NCBI RefSeq assembly: GCF_024169515.1 | Contig: NZ_JAMKCQ010000001.1 | Location: 2,294,001-2,358,000, forward strand | DNA: 64,000 nucleotides | Direction of reading: 5' to 3' | From: Erwinia aphidicola | GTDB lineage: Bacteria > Pseudomonadota > Gammaproteobacteria > Enterobacterales > Enterobacteriaceae | Part shown: positions 10,057-64,000 of the stretch, piece after piece | Layout: the number at the start of each line of letters is the position of its first letter | Position numbering within the stretch: the stretch's first letter is position 1 | Notes under the pieces: model-generated | Database searches by the model: none | What the model was told of the DNA's origin: nothing | Seen by the model: the letters and a program-made list of their open reading frames with translations, nothing else | Translations under genes and position numbers: made by a program

Positions 10057-11991
10057 TCACTTCACGCTAAACACCTTCACCAGCTCGCTCAGATGGTGCC
10101 CCTTGCGGCTCAGCTCCTGCGCGGTCAGCTCGGAGTGTGTCACCAGCTCGCTGTTCTGGTGGGTAGCCTGGCCGATCTGCGCCATCGCCAGATTGACGTG
10201 GCCGATCCCGGTCGTCTGCTCCTGCGATGCGATATTGATTTCGCTCATCAGCGTCTTCACCTGGCCGATGCTGGCAGTGATGTTATCCATCGCCCTGCGC
10301 GTCTGTTCGGACAGTTCATGCCCCTGCACCACTTTGCTCAGCGAGTTGGCAATCAGCCCCTCGATCTCTTTTGCCGCCTGCGCGCTGCGCTGTGCCAGCG
10401 AGCGAACTTCGGCCGCCACCACCGCGAAGCCTTTGCCGTTTTCCCCGGCGCGCGCCGCTTCAACCGCCGCATTGAGCGCCAGAATATTGGTCTGGAAGGC
10501 GATCGATTCAATCACCTGGGTAATATCGGCAATGCTCTGCGAGGCGGTTTTGATATCCGACATGGTGGCGACGGAGCGGCTAACGGTATTATCGCCGAGG
10601 CTGACGGCACAGGCCGCCTCACCCACCAGCTGCAGCGCCTGAGTCACGTTACCGGCGTTTTGCGCCACGGTGGCGCCGAGCTGTTCCATGCTGGCCGAGG
10701 TCTCTTCGACGCTGCTGGCCTGGCGCGTGATCTGCTCGCTGATATTGCCGCTGCTGGCGACAATCGCCTCGGTGCCGCTGGCGATCTCATCGGCCGCATG
10801 GCGCACCTGCGCCACCACCCGCTCCAGTCCCTCGCCGATACCGTTAATCGCCACGATCAGCTGGCCCACTTCATCCTGGCGCCGAGTGTTCAGCGTCGAG
10901 CGCAGATCGCCGGCGGCATACTGGCGTGCCAGGGCGATCACCTGCTGCAGCGGCTGGCTCAGCCAGCGGCGTGTTACCCAGACAAACGTCACGGCGAATA
11001 CCAGGACCATCGCGCTGCCGATCAGCAGGAACAGATTGCGCGTCTGCTGAACCGGGGCCAGCAGGCTGGCTTTATTGACCTGCGCCACCACCACCCAATT
11101 CCACTCCGGCAGATACTGCCAGGCGAGGATCTGCGGGTCGCCGTGTTCATCCAGGGTTTCCAGCCGGCCCTGAGGCTGGTTCAGCAGCTGCTGCTGGATC
11201 GCCTGCGGCAGCGTGGGCCGCTTCCCTTCCAGCGTCGGGTGGAAAAGATACTGGCCGTACTGTTTCCCTGCCGCGCGGTTCAGCACGAAGAACGATCCGC
11301 TGTCGCCGAGATGTTTCGCCAGCACTTTCTGGCGGATGGCCGCGTACTGCTTGCTGATATCCACTCCGACGAACAGAATGGCAATCACCCGGCCCGCCTC
11401 ATCGCGCACTGGCTGGTACTGGGTGATATAGCGTTTGCCAAACAGCAGGGCCACGCCGCGGAAGATTTCCCCTTTTTGCACCGGCTGCCAGGCCGGGCTA
11501 CTGTGGTCAAGCAGGGTGCCGATCGCCCGATCGCCGTTCTCTTTGCGCAGCGAGGTTGAAACGCGCATAAACTCGTTATCGTGGGTCAGGGCAAAGATAG
11601 TGGCAATCGCCCCGGTGCGCTCCTGAAAGTCATCCACCAGTACCTGGTCGAGGTTGAGGGTGCGCAGCCCGGCGCGCAGCGTTGGCGTGGGTTGCGCCCC
11701 GACGACAATCTGCTGGGATTCATCCAGCGTAAAACGCTTTGGCAGGAAGCTCTGGAACAGCCCGGTGTAATTACTCACCTCTTCAGCCAGCGTGGTGTTG
11801 AACATGCCCGCCATATCGCCGATGCCGTTAACCTGGTTTTCCATATCGCTCAGGGTCAGCGTATGAACCTGCTTCGCGGCGCTGTGGCTGAGCGCCAGGG
11901 TTAACACGAGGAACAGGACCGCCACGCCAAGCGAGGTCAGTACCGAAAGTTTGACGCCCAGACTCCATGTCTTGAGAGAGAGACGCTTCAT
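10057..11991 (-). CDS. Methyl-accepting chemotaxis protein with a Cache sensor
   Basis: A 644-residue transmembrane chemoreceptor. Membrane span 1 is at about residues 13-36. A large periplasmic Cache-type sensor (Cache_3-Cache_2-like) runs from about 37 to 320 and contains the 'GVDISKQY' region. Span 2 is at about 322-345, followed by a HAMP domain and a signalling helical hairpin. The hairpin tip carries [22 protein letters not shown], recognisable here in its conserved core TNILALNAA. There is no C-terminal NWETF-type pentapeptide, so CheR/CheB tethering is not expected. The ligand cannot be told from sequence. It is transcribed alone, divergent from yjfP. Confidence 0.95.
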
Positions 11992-53862: not shown

Positions 53863-54228
53863 ATGACGTGGGAGTATTCTCAAGGAACTGGTGTGCTCAG
53901 ACATAACGGAAGCATTGTTGCGCGTGGATATAGTGGAGTGGGAAGTGGACTCAATGCACCCTCAATGCAGCAAGTTGAACGTGTTGGTCCAATACCGGAA
54001 GGATTTTATCGTATTAATGGTTATAACAATCATCGTGGACCTTATACGGTAATTTTAGATCCGATAGCAGGAACGAACACTTTTGGGCGTTCTGCATTCA
54101 GAATACATGGTGATAATGCAAGTAAGCCGCCAAATTCGTCTTCAGAAGGTTGCATAGTGATTAATGGTGCAGGGATTCGCCAATCGATACTTAATTCTGG
54201 TGATTCTATTTTACGGGTGGTGCCATGA
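53863..54228 (+). CDS. Tlde1-like (DUF2778) L,D-transpeptidase-fold T6SS effector
   Basis: A 121-residue protein with no signal peptide. The catalytic motif of the L,D-transpeptidase fold is visible as His82 (FRIHGDN) and SSEGCIVI with Cys97, matching H-x14-S-x-G-C spacing. DUF2778/Tlde1 proteins are antibacterial effectors delivered by type VI secretion that cut or remodel peptidoglycan stem peptides in the target periplasm. The next two genes, an exported putative immunity protein and Hcp, support this. Composition is clearly more AT-rich than the neighbours, and AGGGAG precedes the ATG. Confidence 0.87.
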   Translation: MTWEYSQGTGVLRHNGSIVARGYSGVGSGLNAPSMQQVERVGPIPEGFYRINGYNNHRGPYTVILDPIAGTNTFGRSAFRIHGDNASKPPNSSSEGCIVINGAGIRQSILNSGDSILRVVP

Positions 54229-60811: not shown

Positions 60812-61108
60812 TCTTCTCAATCGTATTCCGTGCGAGCTGCGCGGGCTTTAATTGGCTGTGGTTTTTTACAGCCAAGTTGTCACTGGAAAACAATGCTTCC
60901 CTCAAGGGGATAATAGCAAAAAAATAGCAGTGCCCGATCTGTTATTTTTCTAAAAAAATAAATGCGATATTTAATTCTTTTTTATTTTTTCGATTGCTGA
61001 TAAACAGGTGATTAATTTTTTATTTGTCTCTGCGGGTGAAGTGAAAATTTTTTTTTCGCTGTTGGGATCGACAGAACATAGTCCAGGGCTATCAAGTGCA
61101 GAGGCGCC
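60812..61108. other. AT-rich leader of the adhesin gene
   Basis: About 300 bp of strongly AT-rich sequence with runs of A and T (60950-61060), no frame and no known RNA. It is probably the adhesin promoter region and, by composition, an H-NS target. Confidence 0.55.
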
Positions 61109-61591: not shown

Positions 61592-61604
61592 CATTCAATG
61601 AAAA

Positions 61605-61637
61605 ACCCCGCAGAGTGAAAACTTTGCGGGGTTTTTT
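61605..61637 (+). terminator. rnpB terminator
   Basis: CCCCGCAGAGT / ACTTTGCGGGG stem with a GAAA loop followed by T6. Confidence 0.92.
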
Positions 61638-61657
61638 GTTATTTGCCCTACGGACAT

Positions 61658-61740
61658 GATGAATGACTGTCCACGACACTCTCTATGACAGGAAAGCGGC
61701 TTACCGGTCAGCTTCGAACTCATTCAATGAAAAACCCCGC
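61658..61740 (+). repeat. Partial second copy of the rnpB 3' end
   Basis: GATGAATGACTGTCCACGAC (61658 on) and CTTACCGGTCAGCTTCGAAC (61700 on) repeat the end of rnpB (61542-61611), with a short changed middle. It runs into the tandem array. Confidence 0.88.
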
Positions 61741-62050
61741 TTCGGCGGGGTTTTTTGTTTTTATGCTTTTGACCCCGTAGGGTCGAGGCCTGCCTCGACC
61801 GGGTGCTTGAGGGTCGGGCATGCCCGACCCCTACGGGGCAGGAAAACCCCGCTTCGGCGGGGTTTTTTGTTTTTATGCTTTTGACCCCGTAGGGTCGAGG
61901 CCTGCCTCGACCGGGTGTTTGAGGGTCGGGCATGCCCGACCCCTACGGGGCAGGAAAGCCGCGCTTCGGCGGGGTTTTTTGTTTTTATGCTTTTGACCCC
62001 GTAGGGTCGAGGCCTGCCTCGACCGGGTGTTTGAGGGCCAGGCAGGAAAG
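61735..62050 (+). repeat. Tandem 112-bp terminator-bearing repeats after rnpB
   Basis: Units start at 61735, 61847 and about 61959, period 112 bp, the last incomplete. Each has a CCCCGCTTCGGCGGGG-T6 terminator, a GGTCGAGGCCTGCCTCGACC palindrome and a GGTCGGGCATGCCCGACC palindrome. E. coli rnpB is also followed by about 113-bp repeats with terminators, as I recall. Frames across them on the minus strand are repeat artefacts. Confidence 0.92.
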
Positions 62051-62055
62051 CGGCT

Positions 62056-62658
62056 TTACAGCGGCTGGCAGGCGATAACCAGGCGTGCCAGCGGGGTAAT
62101 GTCGCCCAGCGCGCACTCAAACTGCTGCAGGGCACTGCTAACGCGCACGCGGCCCGGTGGAATACGCGTCAGGTGGCGCACCGTCACCTGGCCTTCCATC
62201 GATACCAGCCACTCGCCGTCAAGGATCTCCGCCCAGGCCTGCTCGGCAATCCACTGGCGCTGCCCTTCCACCACGATCAGCGGCTTAACCAATGCCGTGG
62301 CGCTGAACGCCAGAAAATCTTCATCCAGCATCACCGCCGTCAAATCGCTCAACTTACCGGCCTCCAGCCGCTGACGCGGTAGCAATGTGGTATTCACTTT
62401 TTGTGATTCTTCAGCGCCTGCACCGCTCAGTGCTTCACCCTGACCCGTCACCAGCCAGTGCAGCGTTGCGCCGGTATCCGCCATGCAGCGCACCACAATA
62501 TCCGAAGGGAAATAGCCGCGCGAGTAGCGGTTTGCCAGACTGCTGCTGGCAATGCCGAGGTGTTCTGCCAGTGCCAGCTTGGTGGAAAAACCATATGCCT
62601 GAAGCACACGGTCCAGCACTTCTTTTGCCCCACTCTGGAAATCGATTTGTAGGCTCAA
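62056..62658 (-). CDS. CI-type phage repressor (P2/186-like locus)
   Basis: A 200-residue repressor. A TTG start with AAGGAG 7 bp upstream fits the family start (SLQIDFQSGAKEVLDRV); the frame stays open 48 codons upstream. The N-terminal helix-turn-helix of the Phage_CI family spans about 8-70 (LALAEHLGIASSSLANRY), and the C-terminal domain (about 95-200) is of the 186 CI type. I see no Ala-Gly/Ser/Lys layout of a self-cleaving S24 peptidase, so RecA-driven self-cleavage is unlikely. It is divergent from the zinc-finger gene with operator-like dyads between. Confidence 0.87.
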   Translation of the reverse strand: MSLQIDFQSGAKEVLDRVLQAYGFSTKLALAEHLGIASSSLANRYSRGYFPSDIVVRCMADTGATLHWLVTGQGEALSGAGAEESQKVNTTLLPRQRLEAGKLSDLTAVMLDEDFLAFSATALVKPLIVVEGQRQWIAEQAWAEILDGEWLVSMEGQVTVRHLTRIPPGRVRVSSALQQFECALGDITPLARLVIACQPL

Positions 62659-62862
62659 GCTAAAACTCCTTGCTATTTCACTTTTAGTGAATATACAATT
62701 TGCATTGTAGGGTTGTGTGATTTTACTGGCAGTACGCGATACAACAACCCCGGAGTTTGCCCGAAAAGAGCAAAAATTACAATCTTCAGGCCTGCTATTC
62801 ACCGCGATGAAAGCCAGTTATTCATCTTTTGTGAATTGCCTGCCGCTAACCGGAGAGTTTAA
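62659..62862. promoter_or_regulatory. Intergenic switch region with repressor-like dyads
   Basis: TTCACTTTTAGTGAAT (62677-62692) and TTCATCTTTTGTGAAT (62821-62836) share 13 of 16 bases and both read TTCA...TGAA. A looser TTCA-N6-TGAA is at 62798-62811. One lies just upstream of each divergent gene, as expected for CI operators. Confidence 0.6.
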
Positions 62863-63090
62863 ATGGCCGATGAAATGGACCGCGCACAGCAGCGCGAAGC
62901 CGAAAATCTGGCGCGCCACCTTGCGCGTGCCGTTCAGCGCCCGATGCAGCCCAGCGCCTTTTTCTGTGAAGCGTGCGGGGAACCGATCCCGCTGGCACGG
63001 CGCAAAGCGCTGCACGGCGTGACGCTATGCGTCAGCTGCAAAGAGATTGACGAACACCAGGCAAAACACTGCCGTTCCCCCCTTGTATAA
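62863..63090 (+). CDS. DksA/TraR-type C4 zinc-finger protein
   Basis: A 75-residue phage-type member of the DksA/TraR family. An N-terminal helix rich in Arg, Ala and Glu precedes the zinc finger with Cys35, Cys38, Cys56 and Cys59 (CEACGEPIP and CVSCKEID). Short TraR-like proteins bind RNA polymerase in the secondary channel; P2-like phages carry one in the early operon. GGAGAG precedes the ATG. The gene is transcribed away from the repressor. Confidence 0.9.
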   Translation: MADEMDRAQQREAENLARHLARAVQRPMQPSAFFCEACGEPIPLARRKALHGVTLCVSCKEIDEHQAKHCRSPLV

Positions 63091-63327
63091 CGTCAGCTAC
63101 AGTCGGCAGGGAAGCCGTACCCGCGCGGTTTTTGATTAAGTAAACTGCATGATCGACTGTAAAATCGTCTCTCCCCGGTGAAAAATCACGTCTGGCGCGT
63201 CCCGCAGTTAAAAATATCGCATTACATGTTTGGGTAAATGCCTCTGCATCTAACTACCTAATTATCATCGAGATAACCCGCTCATTAGCCGGGCCGAAAA
63301 TACTTTTATTAATGATGAACGCTATGC

Positions 63328-63347
63328 TACTGTATATATATACAGTA
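63328..63347 (+). promoter_or_regulatory. Perfect LexA (SOS) box
   Basis: TACTGTATATATATACAGTA, which matches the E. coli consensus at every position. It lies 19 bp before the GTG of the 63-residue gene and just before its ribosome site, so LexA would block its transcription until DNA damage. Confidence 0.93.
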
Positions 63348-63365
63348 ATACTGGAGGGGGAAGTT

Positions 63366-63557
63366 GTGGATAAAGAATTAGCGGAACGAGTTATCCTGGA
63401 GCGGGTGGAACTGATTGCAAGGTTAACCTCTGAAGGGGTCTGCCAGGAGCGCGATCGTGAGATTGCCCTGCACCTGATTGCCGACATTGCCAGCGGCATA
63501 GAGCTGAAAAATGCGCAGTTTTCCGTCATCTTTTCTGCCCAGCCGCAGAAGCGCTAA
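63366..63557 (+). CDS. SOS-controlled 63-residue protein, unknown function
   Basis: A small, highly charged, mostly helical protein (VDKELAERVILERVELIA at the start, DREIALHLIADIASGIE in the middle). GTG start with GGAGGGGG 5 bp upstream. It sits between the repressor/zinc-finger genes and the tail gene, right behind a perfect LexA box. In phage 186 and Fels-2, a LexA-controlled small protein (Tum) inactivates the CI repressor; this gene takes that place, though I see no sequence similarity to Tum/DinI. A terminator follows 83 bp later. I do not recognise the family. Confidence 0.72.
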   Translation: MDKELAERVILERVELIARLTSEGVCQERDREIALHLIADIASGIELKNAQFSVIFSAQPQKR

Positions 63558-63640: not shown

Positions 63641-63665
63641 AGCCCCTTTATGGGGCTTTTTTGTT
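63641..63665 (+). terminator. Terminator after the SOS gene
   Basis: AGCCCC / GGGGCT stem with a TTTAT loop and T6 run. It separates the SOS gene from the tail operon, so the tail genes need a promoter of their own. Confidence 0.9.
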
Positions 63666-63692: not shown

Positions 63693-63716
63693 GGTTGTCA
63701 CACCGCTCCTACAACA
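63693..63716 (+). promoter_or_regulatory. Ogr/Delta-box-like dyad before the tail operon
   Basis: GGTTGT-N12-ACAACA, one base from the TGTTGT-N12-ACAACA element that P2-family late promoters use to bind the activator Ogr. It is 118 bp before gene X. A clear -10 at the usual distance is not seen. Confidence 0.5.
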
Positions 63717-63833: not shown

Positions 63834-64000
63834 ATGAAAATTTTTGCCCTGCAGGGGGACAGCGTTGATGAAATCTGTTTTCGCCACTACGGCCGCACCC
63901 GCCAGGTGGTAGAGCAGGTTTACGCGGCCAATAGCGGGCTGGCAGAGCAGGGCGCCTGCCTGCCCCACGGCTACCCGCTTGAGCTACCCGACCTCCCAAG
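63834..64000 (+). CDS. Phage tail protein X, 5' part (runs off the window)
   Basis: The visible 55 residues (MKIFALQGDSVDEICFRHYG, then VEQVYAANSGLAEQGACLP) match P2 gpX, a LysM-like small tail protein that helps tail assembly. GGGAGAACC precedes the ATG. In P2 it is followed by holin, endolysin and tail genes, which would lie beyond the window edge. Confidence 0.88.
   Translation, partial: MKIFALQGDSVDEICFRHYGRTRQVVEQVYAANSGLAEQGACLPHGYPLELPDLP

Follow-up and report, generated by a model that had tools for sequence, protein, structure and literature searches.

In this work, a 63-residue gene of Erwinia aphidicola (assembly GCF_024169515.1) was found by homology to correspond to the N-terminal half of Tum, an antirepressor that is under LexA control in phage 186. 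In our judgement, it is very likely that this short Tum is the SOS trigger of a contractile tailocin of the P2/186 type, through a cascade in which LexA would repress the Tum N-half, the Tum N-half would inhibit CI, CI would repress ogr, and the ogr product would activate the tail genes. The window, i.e., the whole stretch of 64,000 nucleotides that was analysed (contig NZ_JAMKCQ010000001.1, positions 2,294,001 to 2,358,000), ends inside the first tail gene, and the cluster was followed in locus L006, which consists of the window end plus 17 kb and was queried with phage 186 proteins. An earlier note on this DNA had suggested an SOS trigger or antirepressor acting on a CI that does not cleave itself; this is also our best reading, based on the Tum homology, the LexA box, the type of CI, and the operators.

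Identity of the small gene

The short tum gene (tum-N) lies at 63366..63557 on the forward strand and has a GTG start as in 186. An alternative in-frame ATG at 63312 would give a product of 81 residues, the length of one database entry, and would place the LexA box inside the gene. The GTG at 63366 was preferred because 186 tum begins at the corresponding GTG. The 63-residue protein is 70% identical to residues 1-60 of phage 186 Tum (E 7e-24), and a tblastn search with it against the phage collection returned phage 186 tum itself (E 1e-18). It matches PHROG_189 (Tum/DinI) at 1e-23, covering positions 1-61 of 151 of this profile, and in PHROG_1993, the short form, residues 1-62 of 63 align with profile positions 1-62 of 64 (1.8e-20). 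Pfam and NCBIfam gave no match to the protein, and a search of solved structures with a Tum-N profile returned none at E ≤ 1. Relatives number 203 at E ≤ 0.001 under a length filter that leaves out full-length Tum; among the matches listed (120 of 203), most are 60-80 residues long, and several NCBI records of relatives carry the name 'Tum protein'. In an alignment of 31 short forms, 17 residues are invariant, 14 of them at positions 13-20 and 28-39. The protein had been described as unrecognised and of no known family, which is contradicted by the 186 tblastn result, PHROG_189, PHROG_1993, and the NCBI names, and the 'new antirepressor' suggested in the earlier note is the N-terminal half of a known one. 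The homology search that had been proposed was run and placed relatives beside 186-type CI, and the family is a known one (Tum, PHROG_1993).

Residues 61-146 of Tum, the DinI half, gave no match in the window or in L006, and the reading frame stops at residue 63. The gene was filed as a short, N-half-only Tum because the C-terminal DinI half is absent from both the gene and the locus. The tum frame is also split in Fels-2 and PSP3, and the second half in PSP3 is a DinI homologue, according to the available text of PMC3121763. This source quotes a personal communication that places the antirepressor activity of the split PSP3 tum in the upstream half, and the view that an N-half would suffice for antirepression is drawn from this one second-hand statement. 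Since PHROG_189 is named 'RecA filament binding protein DinI', the short Tum might be regarded as a DinI-like modulator of RecA and the SOS response instead of an antirepressor. However, the DinI-like part of 186 Tum is its second half (PMC3121763), and the full-length relatives carry the DinI Pfam domain in a half that is absent here. We regard such a function as extremely improbable and rejected it, with the DinI half missing and the PHROG_189 match limited to the N-half.

Databases often label full-length Tum as a 'DinI family protein', which masks the antirepressor half.

LexA control of short tum

The LexA box TACTGTATATATATACAGTA (63328..63347, forward strand) agrees with the consensus at 20 of 20 positions and is the sole exact match in the host genome, so that the perfect box reported in the earlier note stands. 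Its placement matches that of the LexA site, annotated as 'putative', of the 186 promoter p95. The box is the only match in the window to the 16-bp LexA core at ≤ 3 mismatches (0.06 expected), and the pattern CTGT-N8-ACAG is also found at 60856 and 61059, with spacers unlike the LexA consensus (0.73 such sites expected per window). A scan of the whole genome (4.93 Mb) gave one site with 0 mismatches and seven further sites with 1-3 mismatches. The ORFs behind these seven imperfect sites are DinI, SulA, YebG, three UmuD-like proteins, and one without a name; Pfam backs DinI, SulA, YebG, and one S24/UmuD-like protein, and the two further UmuD-like ORFs were named by eye. Because the imperfect sites precede such ORFs, the host has the same LexA motif. 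Between the box and the GTG of short tum there are 18 nt, with a strong putative ribosome-binding site GGAGGGGG at 63353..63360 (forward strand). No sigma-70-like site at short tum was found by a promoter scan.

Among relatives, a LexA-like box was observed 17-29 bp upstream of tum in 24 of 26 genome loci. In both exceptions, which come from one Rosenbergiella contig, the best match is the C-terminal half, and the N-half upstream lay outside the scan. On viral contigs, the LexA core is intact upstream of tum in 79 of 80 loci (the best 80 of 172, many of them near-copies).

Gene content of the tailocin locus

L006 contains, in the gene order of phage 186, cI, the DksA-like gene, tum, X, LysB, LysC, R, V, W, J, I, and H, and onward in the same order sheath, tube, E, T, U, D, and ogr, where H is matched in its N-terminal part only and T in pieces. 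The DksA/TraR-like C4 zinc-finger gene (62863..63090, forward strand) has its homologue in an early gene of 186 that carries the annotation DksA-like. Tail gene X (baseplate hub; 63834..64000, forward strand) is the first gene of the tail cluster and starts 276 bp 3' of short tum; it is cut by the window end, and the cluster runs on to ogr in L006. With 186 queries, no match (E ≤ 1e-3, 64-kb window plus L006) was obtained for int, apl, cII, A, portal, terminase, scaffold, capsid, and head-completion genes. Likewise, P2-S-like and tail-fibre-assembly genes gave no match with 186 queries in L006, nor did the 186 holin and endolysin queries, and L006 has a lysozyme and a weak holin-like match below the Pfam cut-off. 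The genes by which a tailocin was recognised, i.e., sheath, tube, baseplate, fibre, tape measure, and lysis genes, are all present. The tape-measure ORF has 508 residues compared with 812 in 186, which suggests a shorter tail. Judged by these matches, only the regulatory, lysis, and tail genes of a 186-type cluster are left in the locus, which makes it a contractile tailocin, and we infer from its gene content that tail particles would be made. A peptidase gene (M19-type) and two genes, pqqB and pqqC, all named by eye, are located 3' of ogr.

Two further observations were made in the window. A 121-aa ORF with a Tlde1 domain (PF10908) at 53863-54228 is followed by a 177-aa ORF, and these are possibly a type VI effector and its immunity partner. 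Beside the tailocin, at 61600-62050, there are repeated GC-rich blocks with hairpin-and-T-run ends that look terminator-like by eye.

CI repressor, Ogr, and the proposed circuit

The cI gene (62059..62661, reverse strand) is of the 186 type; its TTG start was assigned by homology, and the longest ORF starts at 62802. The product has the profile domains Phage_CI_repr and Phage_CI_C and matches the solved phage CI 2fjr (E 1.2e-31). It has no match to the S24 peptidase, in agreement with the previous observation that the neighbouring CI is without visible self-cleavage residues. The CI sites FL, FR, and the first pB site of 186 have the form TTCAC-N5-GTGAA, and the sites annotated at pR differ. 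At ≤ 1 mismatch this form was found seven times in the 20-kb locus L006, compared with 0.21 expected, and five of the seven sites are sensibly placed. These predicted operator-like sites are TTCACTTTTAGTGAA at the cI promoter (62677..62691), with the same form as the three 186 sites, TTCATCTTTTGTGAA before the DksA-like gene (62821..62835, one mismatch), TTCACTTTTTGTGAT inside cI (62393..62407, one mismatch), which may be compared with the 186 site FL, and a pair directly upstream of ogr, as at 186 pB. The other two sites are at positions 11699 (tape-measure ORF) and 17534 (past the cluster) of L006.

The pair proximal to ogr is present in all five Erwinia tail loci compared (the window's own and four others). 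In a wider set, a TTCAC operator (≤ 1 mismatch) was found in 14 of 31 ogr upstream regions, compared with 0.12 expected, the 31 regions being all ogr copies scanned, some of them from other prophages. The evidence for a putative operator before ogr is strong in the Erwinia group and patchy elsewhere, where the operator is not universal. By comparing the palindrome at ogr with the cI promoter of the same locus, a recurrence (≥ 13 of 15 bases) was found in 4 of 22 loci versus 2.4% of cross-group pairs, and the mean number of matched bases (8.5 versus 7.7) hardly differs, which is a weak signal. Because this general palindrome test is weak, the link between CI and ogr is claimed firmly only for the Erwinia group. 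In the Pantoea loci L017 and L019, another palindrome, TTAGATTTAGTCTAA, or one base off, occurs at both the cI promoter and ogr; the ogr copy of L017 was matched to its locus by genome and sits on another contig.

The ogr product matches Ogr_Delta. The pattern of P2-type activators, TGT-N12-ACA, occurs before X and before the sheath gene; there are nine such sites in L006 compared with 2.2 expected, just two of them at late-promoter positions. The site before X is a predicted Ogr/B-type late-activator site, TGTCACACCGCTCCTACA (63696..63713, forward strand), with a counterpart in each of the five Erwinia loci compared. Both positions are kept in all five (L006 and L072-L075), the sheath site always at -89; two of these loci belong to one species and two to another, and the chance per region is about 0.03. 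The two annotated 186 B sites read TGT-N12-CCA, which is one mismatch away. Between short tum and the tail operon there is a weak terminator-like hairpin with a T run (63641..63657, forward strand), and two such hairpins were found in the region against 1.9 expected by chance.

The earlier note had also considered that the short Tum directly activates the tail genes, and the small distance to gene X would fit such a function. On the other hand, the short Tum has no match to a DNA-binding family, the locus has its own ogr, preceded by CI operators, with sites of the Ogr type upstream of X and of the sheath gene, and the terminator-like stem, although weak, stands between short tum and X. With Ogr and its sites at the locus and no DNA-binding family recognised, direct activation was rejected, and its probability appears almost negligible.

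We hypothesize that the short Tum acts instead on CI. In a healthy cell, LexA would repress short tum, and CI would be bound to operators of the form TTCAC-N5-GTGAA in the cI and ogr promoters. Cleavage of LexA upon DNA damage would allow the short Tum to be made, which would bind CI so that CI leaves the operators. The ogr gene would then be expressed, and its product would switch on the late promoters upstream of X and of the sheath gene, leading to the production of tails and lysis proteins. The binding of Tum to CI, the repression of ogr by CI, and the activation of the tail promoters by Ogr are carried over by analogy from phage 186, for which every step of the cascade has either an annotation (a 'putative' one for the LexA site) or a statement in the available text of PMC7708051; homology, sites, gene order, conservation, and selection could be read from the sequence of the locus itself.

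Selection on the locus

The same peptidase-pqq genes lie 3' of ogr in the window's genome and in L072, L073, L074, L075, and L092. L092 (G045:C1:4013500-4033000) shares the chromosomal site; it gave no match to the tail genes, and it has cI, short tum, ogr, and lysis genes.

The LexA box and short tum could be leftovers of a decaying 186 prophage that have no current role. The replication, integration, and head genes are gone, and the same-site locus L092 has lost its tail genes while it keeps cI, tum-N, lysis genes, and ogr, both of which would be expected of a dead remnant. The pN/pS ratios, calculated for the window genes versus the same-site relatives L073, L074, and L075, plus L092 where the gene exists, are rough because synonymous sites are heavily changed. 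They amount to 0.09-0.17 for tum-N, 0.13-0.16 for ogr, 0.16-0.17 for X, 0.12-0.14 for sheath, 0.06-0.07 for tube, 0.19-0.24 for J, 0.21-0.22 for U, 0.29-0.31 for lysozyme, 0.30-0.32 for D, 0.32-0.35 for cI, 0.31-0.40 for holin, and 0.34-0.47 for R, compared with 0.12-0.24 for two host genes. All 12 locus genes measured (0.06-0.47) are far below 1; tum-N, X, sheath, tube, and ogr are within or below the range of the host genes, and cI, holin, lysozyme, R, and D are higher. Furthermore, the LexA box, the CI operators, and the Ogr sites are positionally conserved across the Erwinia loci. These results argue against decay, and a dead remnant is therefore highly unlikely.

Headless relatives

The genome scan with the short Tum gave 26 loci, of which 18 are headless, with tail gene X downstream and no 186-type head gene; seven have head genes (one of them portal only), and one ends at a contig edge. 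All 18 headless loci have cI and a LexA-like box, 17 with a short Tum and one (L018) with a full-length Tum. Gene A persists in 13 of the 18 and an integrase in three, and L021 is degenerate, with only X, LysC, V, and ogr. As the loci were found through Tum, the share of headless clusters without Tum cannot be read off these counts. A P2-like sheath is present in the Erwinia genomes G033, G040, and G042, which have neither a 186-type capsid match nor Tum-N, and therefore P2-like tail genes can occur without a Tum-N trigger. Because head-bearing prophages also have a short Tum, domestication is not a condition for losing the DinI half. At the threshold used, the left flanks of the 18 headless loci form nine groups, and by the right flank two of these (L008; L009-L011) share one site. 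Since there are nine such groups, the reduction to the headless form probably happened more than once.

Tum-N was found in 14 of 37 genomes of the genus sample and in 7 of 394 genomes of the order-wide sample, all seven in the window's family. Among the viral-contig tum loci, 30 of 80 look headless (again the best 80 of 172, with many near-copies). One further locus, L093 (G059:C1:4188500-4207500), has no portal or capsid match; it carries a head-completion gene, part of a terminase, and a full-length Tum, and resembles a prophage whose reduction to a tailocin has only begun.

CI-antirepressor pairing and the resident prophage

PHROG_698, annotated as 'unknown function', stands at the position of tum in a further set of 186-like phages (L002:1489-1674 and the viral loci L094-L173). 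The viral set contains at least 594 relatives among 600 stretches, of which 80 were kept. Gene A is just upstream in 76 of these 80 loci, and a LexA-like box (≤ 1 core mismatch, 19-54 bp upstream) is present in 73 of 79, compared with about 1% of shuffles. In 50 of the 80, a match that extends into the DinI part of 186 Tum lies within 500 bp. The comparison of the PHROG_698 and Tum-N profiles (hhalign E 9e-5, probability 59%) is suggestive only, and PHROG_698 matches 186 Tum at 2e-5. In 186-like phages, PHROG_698 has the traits of a second class of Tum N-half under LexA control. A CI protein was identified in 159 of 188 loci, and 131 of these proteins are distinct. On the tree of these 131, the antirepressor class changes twice, compared with about 43.5 changes in label shuffles, a contrast that near-copies inflate and in which the class label is the query that found the locus. 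Two changes are as expected if CI and antirepressor are matched.

One of the two changes is the resident prophage of the window's own genome. This complete-looking 186-like prophage (L090, L091) is located at about G000:C1:2390485-2422313 and starts about 21 kb past the tailocin ogr. It has int, cI, apl, cII, A, capsid, tail, and ogr, and its sheath is 84% identical to that of the tailocin. Its CI falls in a Tum-N clade, its tum position is occupied by a PHROG_698 protein whose gene follows an imperfect LexA box, and a TTCAC-N5-GTGAA site lies upstream of its ogr; because of these three features, cross-regulation between the tailocin and the prophage is possible. The short Tum might even act mainly in trans, on the CI of this prophage rather than on that of the tailocin. 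Such a role would make use of a full 186-like prophage in the same genome, whose CI belongs to a clade otherwise paired with Tum-N and whose ogr carries the operator form. However, among five Erwinia genomes with the same-site short tum and CI (G028, G044, G037, G038, and G045), four have no 186 capsid match (E ≤ 1e-10), and G044 has a 46% capsid match, so short tum is kept without a partner prophage. The pairing in cis is also simpler, and a role mainly in trans seems unlikely.

Returning to the pairing of the short Tum with the CI of its own locus, we tentatively propose, with somewhat less than even confidence, that the Tum N-half, a matched CI, and Ogr form a portable SOS switch, often retained by enterobacteria as a 186-type prophage is reduced to a tailocin. 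The switch would be part of a LexA-controlled CI-antirepressor superfamily that includes PHROG_698, each class being matched to its own CI clades, and the short Tum could also act on the resident prophage. This proposal is weakened because the headless loci were found through Tum and because three Erwinia genomes with a P2-like sheath lack Tum-N.

Comparison with known systems

In the open-access papers searched, none describing a role of Tum in a tailocin was found. A 2024 review treats the regulation of tailocin self-sacrifice by bacteria as an open question in its available text (PMC12090994), and for the P2-like tailocin of Dickeya dadantii the regulators are likewise said to await elucidation (PMC12297226). 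In the available text of a study of prophage activity in Erwinia aphidicola with mitomycin C (PMC10689766), the words tailocin, tail-like, and bacteriocin are absent. With the present locus, a P2/186-type tailocin has a proposed circuit that is complete from DNA damage to the tail genes, has named components, and can be tested, and small 'hypothetical' or 'DinI family' genes in such clusters may be the trigger. The surprise is limited because the individual parts are known from phage 186.

The closest known system is 186 Tum itself (PHROG_189), which shares the N-terminal 60 residues at the identity given above, the placement of the LexA box, the GTG start, a partner CI of the same family, and CI operators before the late activator gene. 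In contrast, 186 Tum has 146 residues with the C-terminal DinI half and induces a whole phage, whereas only 63 residues and the regulation, lysis, and tail genes remain here. The short Tum of Erwinia phage ENT90 (PHROG_1993) is also a stand-alone N-half, 73% identical over 60 residues, and the split tum frames of Fels-2 and PSP3 likewise yield a separate small protein from the N-terminal half. These three are phages or prophages and not tail-only clusters, and ENT90 has head genes.

The pantailocins of Pantoea ananatis, reportedly described by Stice in 2023, are said to be phage-tail bacteriocins. In the headless locus L019 of P. ananatis, cI is present and short tum has a LexA box; the identity of this locus with a published pantailocin is not implied. 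Xenorhabdicin is likewise a phage-tail bacteriocin, and its locus is reported to have CI, OgrK, and a DinI gene (PMC13280938); this conserved 'DinI' may be a mislabelled full-length Tum. Unlike here, no Tum-CI-Ogr circuit is named for pantailocins or xenorhabdicin in the available parts of the sources. The Gifsy proteins GfoA and GftA, which are also small and under LexA control, inhibit a prophage repressor that is not cleaved (PMC3121763). They resemble the short Tum by description, as LexA-controlled antirepressors, but act on other repressors in other prophages. In R-pyocins, the repressor PrtR is itself inactivated through RecA. The R-pyocins are, like the present locus, under the control of a repressor and an activator, PrtR and PrtN, with a role of LexA mentioned, but the available text of PMC12297226 names no Tum-like antirepressor for them.
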